The position numbers were made by a program, and so were the translations under genes. The notes beneath the pieces are model-generated. The model worked only from the letters and a program-made list of their open reading frames with translations. It did no database searches and was not told where the DNA came from. From assembly GCA_017525525.1 (NCBI GenBank), contig JAFXSQ010000038.1, forward strand, positions 1 to 43,724: DNA of 43,724 nucleotides, given 5' to 3'. Every line of letters begins with the position of its first letter. Position 1 is the stretch's first letter. The stretch is from Lachnospiraceae bacterium. Its GTDB lineage: Bacteria > Bacillota > Clostridia > Lachnospirales > Lachnospiraceae. Shown one piece after another: positions 1-878 of this stretch.

Positions 1-20
1 AGCAAATTAAAATATTAAGA

Positions 21-260
21 AAGGAGAGTCTACTATTTAGATGAAATCCATATTATGCCACATACAAGGCAATATGGATATGTACCGATGGCTTAGTCGG
101 GAATTAACGACTGTGGAGTGTACAAGAACTTGTGAGTAGTATATCTGTTTATAGATTACCAAAGCATACACGTTGAAGCAGTAACTACGAATCGTGAGAT
201 TGTAGCGAATCATCTATCATATACATATTTGTATATGTTTTTAGTAGCAGGTTACAAACC
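21..260 (+). promoter_or_regulatory. Structured leader of sodA bridging a distant Shine-Dalgarno to the start codon
   Basis: A good Shine-Dalgarno, AAGGAG, lies at 21-26, but the sodA ATG is at 261 with no comparable site nearer. Between them the strand is full of inverted repeats: a closing helix 30-35/242-247 (CTACTA with TAGTAG); 46-54/71-79 with an inner 57-59/68-70; 81-85/120-124 enclosing 95-99/108-112; 143-146/153-156; 185-193/198-205 capped by a GTGA (GNRA-type) loop with one bulged G; 218-225/230-237, a perfect 8-bp stem; and 250-253/257-260, which abuts the ATG. If folded, only about five unpaired bases separate the Shine-Dalgarno from the start. The helices are read directly from the sequence. 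That they form an RNA with a role in sodA translation is inference. I recognise no known riboswitch or intron class. Confidence 0.5.
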
Positions 261-878
261 ATGTTTAAGCAGATAGAACTTGATTACGCAAAGGACGCGC
301 TTGAGCCGTATATCGACGCGTTGACGGTTGAAACACATTACGGCAAGCATCATGTTACTTATACCAACAACTTCAACGCAGCCTGTGAGAAAGCAGGCAT
401 CACCTCGGATGATGCGGCAGCAGTACTCGCAGACCTTGATAGCGTTGCTGACGAGGCAACAAGAACAGCGTTGAGAAACAACGGCGGCGGATATTACAAT
501 CACAATCTCTACTTTGCAAACTTCTCGGCTAACCCGAAGAAGGCGCCTGAGGGCAAGCTCGCAGAGAAGATTAACGAGAAGTTCGGCAGTCTTGAGAAGC
601 TTATTGAGGAGCTTTCATCACTTGCCGCAACACAGTTCGGCTCAGGCTGGGCTTGGCTTTCGGTAGCGCCAGACGGCAGCCTTGTTACCTCGAAGACCGG
701 TAACCAGGACAACCCGATTTCATTAAAGACGGGCAACACTCCGATTATCGCCCTCGATGTATGGGAGCATGCTTATTACCTTAAGTACAAGAATGTCCGT
801 CCCGATTACATCAAGGCATTCTTCGAGATTCTCGACTGGGGCAAGGTAGAGGCTCTGTACGAGAAGGCAGCAGGCTAA
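261..878 (+). CDS. sodA: Superoxide dismutase, Fe/Mn family
   Basis: This 205-residue protein is a cytoplasmic superoxide dismutase that converts superoxide to hydrogen peroxide and oxygen. It has the normal family length. The N-terminal helical hairpin carries the first metal ligand, His26 in ETHYGKHH. The second His is in GGGYYNHNLYF, and the C-terminal alpha/beta domain has the DVWEHAYYLKYKNVRPDY signature with the Asp and His ligands. Fe versus Mn use cannot be decided by eye. The ATG at 261 fits the family N-terminus, but there is no good ribosome-binding site within 15 bases; the nearest strong one is 235 bases upstream, across a structured leader. An intrinsic terminator follows, so the gene appears to be monocistronic. 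Confidence 0.96.
   Translation: MFKQIELDYAKDALEPYIDALTVETHYGKHHVTYTNNFNAACEKAGITSDDAAAVLADLDSVADEATRTALRNNGGGYYNHNLYFANFSANPKKAPEGKLAEKINEKFGSLEKLIEELSSLAATQFGSGWAWLSVAPDGSLVTSKTGNQDNPISLKTGNTPIIALDVWEHAYYLKYKNVRPDYIKAFFEILDWGKVEALYEKAAG

Follow-up and report, generated by a model that had tools for sequence, protein, structure and literature searches.

What occupies the interval between the Shine-Dalgarno sequence and the start codon of sodA at the edge of this contig, and by what route might the gene still be translated? The stretch of DNA analysed here (the window) is contig JAFXSQ010000038.1, positions 1-43,724, of Lachnospiraceae bacterium GCA_017525525.1 (C65 from its first base). The first-pass annotation had pointed to an AAGGAG at 21-26 and to the ATG of sodA at 261, both of which are confirmed here, and had offered several readings of the RNA between them: a fold bringing a distant Shine-Dalgarno to the start codon, a switch acting on superoxide dismutase, or a small insertion element with a structured RNA. 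The gene itself (261-878, forward strand, as are all features of the window described below unless stated otherwise) encodes an Fe/Mn superoxide dismutase with Sod_Fe_N and Sod_Fe_C Pfam domains, and it is the spacer between its Shine-Dalgarno and its ATG that is interrupted.

Identity and extent of the element

An Rfam search of the whole window placed RAGATH-18 (RF03064), the scaffold core of the guide RNA of IS607 TnpB, at 110-184 with 75.6 bits against a gathering threshold of 44.9; the family was found once in the host genome. The structured sodA leader is therefore the guide RNA of a transposon. HEARO/IsrB RNAs are likewise transposon-encoded guide RNAs of the OMEGA kind, and the ATGA at 41-44 had been taken as a hint of their NTGA edge; Rfam gives RAGATH-18/IS607 here instead, as the sole match within 1-400 up to E = 10 and with no HEARO match, and the ATGA turns out to lie in one arm, AGATGA, of a helix that is conserved.

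In IS607-family TnpB systems RAGATH-18 has been described as the guide-RNA core; the scaffold measures 187 nt, a 20-nt guide comes after it, and 5'-AGGAG was the target-adjacent motif (TAM) in 18 of 22 strains (PMC11061315). Since AGGAG is at once the TAM of TnpB and a Shine-Dalgarno sequence, the element falls between the Shine-Dalgarno and the start codon. It shares with the guide RNA (RAGATH-18 reRNA) of that paper the RF03064 core, the length of the scaffold, the TAM 5'-AGGAG and a guide that lies after the element end, but it differs from the elements described there in being compact, with neither tnpA nor tnpB, and in carrying an extra 5' structured RNA, an internal Shine-Dalgarno-like motif and a closing helix. 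By its position 3' of the scaffold, as in PMC11061315, the host sequence at 251-270 (GTTACAAACC plus the start of sodA) would be the putative 20-nt guide. The main text of that paper never mentions Shine, ribosome, start codon, MITE or orphan, and among papers linking TnpB with Shine-Dalgarno or ribosome-binding sites, judged by title and the start of the abstract and drawn mostly from outside the subscription literature, none was found to describe the arrangement reported here.

The window begins 16 bases 5' of the conserved motif, and the 5' half of the element, together with the original Shine-Dalgarno, lies outside it. Because window positions 1-122 are identical to the 122 bases at the end of contig C73 (L070), we infer that C73 adjoins the window on its upstream side; the join is supported by other copies, in which the 5' half (A) and the 3' half (B) follow each other in the same order, and C73 joined to the window shows 82% identity, along some 440 bases, to an element of another genus. 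The whole element amounts to 449 nt. Its 3' half occupies window positions 17-250. The 5' half (L070:1302-1506) lies on C73, and its last bases appear in the window at 1-6, an assignment drawn from the 122-base overlap and from the alignment, covariation and model of A; the rest of A, with the left end and the host AAGGAG that is both Shine-Dalgarno and TAM, corresponds to L070:1296-1500. An A/T-rich linker, variable in the alignments, then leads (7-16) to the internal Shine-Dalgarno-like motif AAGAAAGGAG (17-26). The left end comes directly after the AAGGAG at L070:1296-1301, and the right end TTTTTAGTAGCAG (238-250) stops at 250, a boundary placed by insertion-site comparison and by the empty rpoA sites described below. 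The AAGGAG at 21-26 is thus internal to the element and not, as had been supposed, the ribosome-binding site of the host; the host site is a second AAGGAG, about 225 nt farther 5'. Just 5' of the latter, L070:1260-1288 reads GTCATTCTGAGCGAAGCGAAGAATC, which we take to resemble a widespread intergenic repeat. On the other side of the gene downstream of sodA, a GA-cis RNA (RF02987, 38.2 bits, gathering 34.7) occurs on the reverse strand at 1684-1767.

The ends of the element tie it to complete IS607 transposons. The left end (TAAGTAA..TGTCAAATGTG) is common to the compact element and to L086 and L088/L098, of the type that bears TnpA and TnpB; the right end GTAGCAG/GTGGCAG is homologous to that of TnpA-bearing elements; and in the two complete elements inspected tnpA begins approximately 60-75 nt beyond a similar left end. 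MITEs are short, non-autonomous derivatives that keep the ends of a full transposon, and the compact element, by the ends compared here, is like them, but it has a conserved structured RNA and a Shine-Dalgarno, and it stands before start codons. Its identity as a compact, non-autonomous, TnpB-less derivative of IS607 is well supported. The element holds neither TnpB nor a serine transposase TnpA; in the host genome, no match to PF07282 was obtained in a search in which the positive-control genomes matched, and searches for a RAGATH-18-type TnpB and for the TnpA of L086, both run without a positive control, returned no match. One sequence, L138, is a hybrid: it combines the A domain, the internal Shine-Dalgarno and the GCTACT arm with the kind of right end, TTTTGAGTAGCAG, that TnpB-bearing elements have. 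In the window the right end closes with AG (249-250), as it does in L086 and L087, and the TAM AGGAG has the same two final bases. Exchange in IS607 has been reported to occur at GG (PMC6188088), and it might be guessed that elements with a GAGGG TAM pair with ends in CGG.

Insertion between Shine-Dalgarno and start codon

Copies were collected with a right-end pattern picked blind to the downstream sequence, which returned 21 stretches in genome contigs and 8 in viral contigs. After L109 (a chance match), L101 (110 bases) and the duplicates L102, L108, L118, L119, L125 and L127 had been dropped, 21 were retained, and these were joined by the window, L092, L094, L095 and L096, by L134 and L135 from a covariance-model search of 392 genomes (5 matched), and by L139 from a phage record, to make 29 non-duplicate copies. 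Outside the counts stand L093, L100, L133 and L138, whose sequence stops before or at the right end, and L136, which went unrecognised by the parsing script. Counts of the Shine-Dalgarno motif and of the helices cover 25 of the 29, the 5' part of B being out of view in L103, L111, L116 and L123, and counts of the left flank cover the 21 copies with A in view. As controls we used 35 other RAGATH-18 elements from 45 loci, with same-site repeats removed; the right end was unrecognised in the controls L014, L025, L084 and L085, of which L085 has no ATG in range and L084 an ATG at 0.

The copies belong to Lachnospiraceae, to other Firmicutes, namely Sharpea and a member of another family of the order (G703), and to phage contigs, and one is carried, beside tail genes, by the isolated Butyrivibrio phage Ceridwen. 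In this phage (L139:4181-4229; MN882553.2) the annotated start of QHJ73755.1 falls within the right end of the element, and its true start is likely the ATG 5 nt past that end. Two metagenomic phage contigs (L122/L127 and L124/L125) have two compact elements each, before the same two genes. Patterns for the A domain gave nothing in viral contigs beyond those already in the set, plus a chance match (L131), and A had no match in the plasmid collection.

Every one of the 29 copies is followed, 5-11 nt past its right end, by an ATG that opens an ORF of at least 50 amino acids. The same holds for 21/35 of the other RAGATH-18 elements (Fisher p = 5e-5 against 29/29; 16/28 with an upstream frame of at least 250 amino acids), and for 11 of 191 AGGAG sites in the window. 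RAGATH-18 elements in general favour sites between Shine-Dalgarno and ATG, the compact elements differing in degree, and the frequency among the other elements means that targeting accounts for part of the pattern. In all 21 copies with the left flank in view an in-frame stop lies at most 36 codons upstream of the ATG in the joined empty site, so that none of these looks intragenic. The genes 3' of the copies are varied and include rpoA, the IF-1 gene infA, a gene of the histidyl-tRNA synthetase family (hisS-like), a pnp-like gene with an RNase PH domain, members of the carbohydrate phosphorylase, phosphoglucomutase and transaldolase families, and several that fall in no named Pfam family; most bacteria cannot do without rpoA, infA and hisS.

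The rpoA site allows occupied and empty states to be compared. A search of six genomes of the genus, counting the occupied one, gave matches in three. The two of these besides the occupied one have the empty site, which reads CATAAGGAG-GG(T/G)CCAAG ATG in both congeners, that is AAGGAG-GG(T/G)CCAAG, the hyphen marking the insertion point. The occupied copy reads ...AGTAGCAG-GGTCCAGG ATG, with ...GCAG- at the right end. This comparison shows insertion between Shine-Dalgarno and ATG and fixes the right boundary. For the gene next to the Butyrivibrio copy L137, a search for an empty site in 79 genomes of the genus gave just short matches outside G689. The sodA leaders of relatives have canonical Shine-Dalgarno sequences in several cases, but 11 of 23 loci were unparsed and some parsed starts were internal, and these leaders are left out of the evidence. 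Together, RAGATH-18 and the empty rpoA sites bear out the earlier suggestion of an insertion element with a structured RNA lodged between a ribosome-binding site and its gene. Comparison of the copies shows that a mobile element lacking TnpB, which has a guide RNA, a Shine-Dalgarno-like motif and closing helices predicted from their conservation, fills the spacer between Shine-Dalgarno and ATG of many genes.

RNA structure of the two halves

The 5' half is a structured RNA in its own right. In an alignment of nineteen A domains the mean column identity is 75-80%, and their structure comprises seven helices, one of them a pseudoknot, with pairs in 94.6% of cells; two-sided changes affect 22 of its 36 pairs against 0-4 in slid controls, over which the structure has an advantage, being derived from the same sequences. 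On four of the five measures none of 500 shuffles comes up to the real alignment, while on the fifth (further pair types) 384 do. Two members compared with Rfam 15 gave chance-level matches alone up to E = 10 (RAGATH-22 with 12.7 bits against a gathering threshold of 120.3, snR75 and WT1-AS_5), and in the absence of a significant match in these two the assignment of A to group I or group II introns, HEARO or another Rfam family was rejected. Among the sources searched A was seen just in compact elements, and a model of the 5' half run against 23 sources, loci of TnpB-bearing elements included, matched L070 (C73) alone. A is a real, conserved and unclassified structured RNA. Two short copies, L105 and L106, are devoid of it; L105/L072 and L106 begin at GAAAGGAG and could have arisen by deletion between the host and the internal Shine-Dalgarno acting as direct repeats.

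The consensus fold of B, built on 21 copies, has 59 pairs, 23 of them with two-sided changes, and the further helices that the first-pass annotation had drawn, with the GTGA-capped hairpin among them, are present in it. Within the window it consists of a covarying hairpin ATCCATAT/ATATGGAT (46-79, arms 46-53/72-79), the RAGATH-18 body (110-184), the GTGA-capped hairpin (185-205), whose loop is GCAA in L112 and GTAA in L110, as fits the expectation for a GNRA loop, and a right-end hairpin CATATAC/GTATATG (218-237, arms 218-224/231-237). These are embraced by a second closing helix between AGATGA (39-44) and TCATCT (210-215), of whose five inner pairs three occur in 21/21 copies and two in 20/21, the adjacent outer pair changing from U-A to A-U in 6/21. 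The hairpin drawn at 250-260 does exist as GGTT/AACC (250-253/257-260), but it is host sequence, with just G250 belonging to the element.

The outermost closing helix pairs CTACTA (30-35) with TAGTAG (242-247); 24 of 25 copies have at least 5 bp of it in an unchanged register, the exception being the rpoA copy. Its 5' arm begins 3-4 nt past the GAAAGGA of the internal Shine-Dalgarno and its 3' arm stops 2-3 nt short of the right end. Over the copies this helix adds up to 156 bp, whereas 2000 shuffles gave 115 +/- 5.5 and at most 136; the sum takes in 6 bp of another register from the rpoA copy and comes from related copies, most of which are singly not significant. The 3' arm is constant, so that variation is mostly one-sided. 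In thermodynamic folds the helix depends on context: its pair probability is 0.86-0.98 in the segments 17-263 and 25-260, 0.44-0.50 in 1-260, 0.08-0.09 in 17-280 and 0.03-0.04 in 1-300, and it amounts to 0.18-0.20 when the element is folded with 13 nt added, and to 0.15-0.17 when the C73 leader and 40 nt more are included. High values are thus limited to the flank-free segment, and values are low with the sodA coding sequence or the whole element. The helix postulated earlier at these positions consequently holds in homologues but not in the fold of 1-300, the check that the first-pass annotation had itself named; that fold is of ordinary stability (z -1.36). Over 25 copies the predicted distance from Shine-Dalgarno to ATG is barely below that of shuffles (mean z -0.45); we rejected this distance in single folds as a proof of bridging, shuffles bringing the ends nearly as close. 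The rpoA copy (L096:1200-1374) no longer has the RAGATH-18 core or the closing helix, while A, the internal Shine-Dalgarno and AGATGA/TCATCT are retained; it has a weak AGGG near the ATG, which it may use for translation.

The internal Shine-Dalgarno, GAAAGGA, is found in 25/25 copies with the 5' part of B in view and in 0/35 of the other RAGATH-18 elements, where the 40-130 nt before the core were inspected. A small ORF behind this motif was considered and rejected, the ATG at 41 not being conserved (ATA in L092, ATG TAA in L072). On the host side AGGAG is intact in 16/21 copies, as it is in the sodA copy (AAGGAG, L070:1296-1301), and changed in 5/21 (L094, L096, L114, L124 and L134), with no Shine-Dalgarno remaining beside the element in L094 and L134. 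The alteration of the host motif, next to the invariance of GAAAGGA, suggests that the internal Shine-Dalgarno, rather than the original one, serves the gene after insertion, although such genes might also be silent.

A proposed route to translation of the interrupted genes

With a confidence slightly on the favourable side of even, we hold that the element splits host ribosome-binding sites and gives a replacement Shine-Dalgarno which its own fold would bring to the start codon. Insertion after 5'-AGGAG lands the element between the host Shine-Dalgarno and the start codon, and alone would part the two. The element has its own Shine-Dalgarno-like motif (AAGAAAGGAG, 17-26), placed right before the closing helix 30-35/242-247 of the guide-RNA domain, and this helix, once formed, would set Shine-Dalgarno and AUG about 10-18 unpaired nucleotides apart for the 30S subunit. 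Such a mobile split ribosome-binding site would keep the host gene on. If TnpB were supplied in trans (none was found in the genome by the searches above), the guide RNA would, from known TnpB biology, cut the empty site and thereby favour retention. Working split sites are on record for genes 38 and 25 of phage T4, in which structure shortens the gap between Shine-Dalgarno and AUG from 22 to 5 nt and from 27 to 11 nt, respectively (PMC3014915). The predicted arrangement is alike in that RNA structure would shorten the gap, and differs from the T4 sites described there, which are short and fixed at one gene, in spanning approximately 174-244 nt, in being mobile and before many genes, and in being made of guide RNA. 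The low probability of the closing helix in longer folds, its scant two-sided change, the rpoA copy in which it is lost, and the A domain, which the bridging model leaves unaccounted for and which two short copies do without, set limits to it. The original proposal of a Shine-Dalgarno brought near the start hence survives in one respect, for the conserved closing helix would set the Shine-Dalgarno-like motif near the ATG, and is qualified in another, the thermodynamics of the helix being context-dependent.

The element might instead be a plain passenger MITE for which AGGAG is merely the target, the genes being switched off or weakly translated by other means, either A/U-rich initiation or a weak GCAGG close to the start. 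Shine-Dalgarno sites are expected targets of any element with an AGGAG TAM, as the 21/35 of the other elements attest, and the closing helix is thermodynamically weak in context; yet the 29/29 of the compact elements exceeds that proportion, rpoA, infA and hisS-like genes of the kind found downstream are usually essential, and an invariant Shine-Dalgarno-like motif in fixed register beside the closing helix, missing from 35/35 other elements, speaks against a mere passenger, which we regard as unlikely, if worth keeping in mind. The size, conservation and strong covariation of A (22/36 pairs with two-sided changes against 0-4) raise the further thought of a mini-IStron, in which A would act as an unrecognised ribozyme, excising the element in full from the mRNA and restoring the host Shine-Dalgarno and ATG; the presence of copies before rpoA, infA and a hisS-like gene would suit it. 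IStrons of IS607 group B, which avoid harm by group I splicing and of whose insertions 118/202 are intragenic, some copies having no ORFs, are likewise RNA-bearing IS607-derived elements tolerated in host genes (PMC4227781); the compact element differs from those described there in its 449 nt, in the absence of a group I intron from the two members tested and in occupying the spacer between Shine-Dalgarno and ATG in the 29 counted copies. Against splicing speak the searches of two members, in which neither the group I core (Intron_gpI) nor a group II intron matched up to E = 10, the joined site, which looks like a gene start and not like the interior of an ORF in 21/21 copies with the left flank in view, the invariant internal Shine-Dalgarno, which splicing leaves unexplained, L094 and L134, which have no Shine-Dalgarno at the left end to restore, and the two short copies devoid of A. 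Splicing is accordingly less likely than bridging, and we consider it improbable; it is kept in view at all for the sake of A, to which a function is still to be assigned.

Two readings centred on sodA regulation fare worse. A domesticated guide RNA could work in trans with a TnpB-like repressor, after the manner of the TldR regulators that are known to exist (PMC13418256), with sodA as the regulated gene; the guide-RNA core is intact and the start region of sodA would be the guide, but the genome of the host has no match to the TnpB family, copies precede genes of many functions and the core is lost in the rpoA copy, which makes this very improbable. Even harder to credit is a ligand- or stress-responsive riboswitch evolved for sodA. 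The RNA is structured and does lie in a 5' leader, but the same RNA stands before 28 other loci, where the genes named by Pfam are of varied function, and 24/24 other genomes of the genus gave no sodA match in the one search made; this distribution contradicts such a riboswitch and disposes of the superoxide dismutase-specific switch put forward at first.

Returning to the bridging reading, it is tempting to speculate, though we put this somewhat below even, that these mobile elements make up a class of their own, specialised on ribosome-binding sites and harmless by virtue of their own Shine-Dalgarno acting across a folded guide RNA, with A aiding ribosome recruitment or processing. The copy in an isolated Butyrivibrio phage makes laboratory testing possible. 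The family would provide a natural test of the distance at which a Shine-Dalgarno can stand from its start codon if RNA structure bridges it, about 230 nt as compared to the 22-27 nt of phage T4, and it adds to the repertoire of bacterial RNAs a conserved structure, A, for which the members tested gave no significant match in Rfam 15. The family further ties the AGGAG TAM of a well-studied family of RNA-guided nucleases to ribosome-binding sites, which would help to explain where these elements persist. The element is an IS607-derived guide-RNA element of a known kind, with a plausible new way of tolerating insertion: if true, besides avoiding genes or splicing out, a transposon would have a third route to harmlessness, that of rebuilding the translation start that it has broken.
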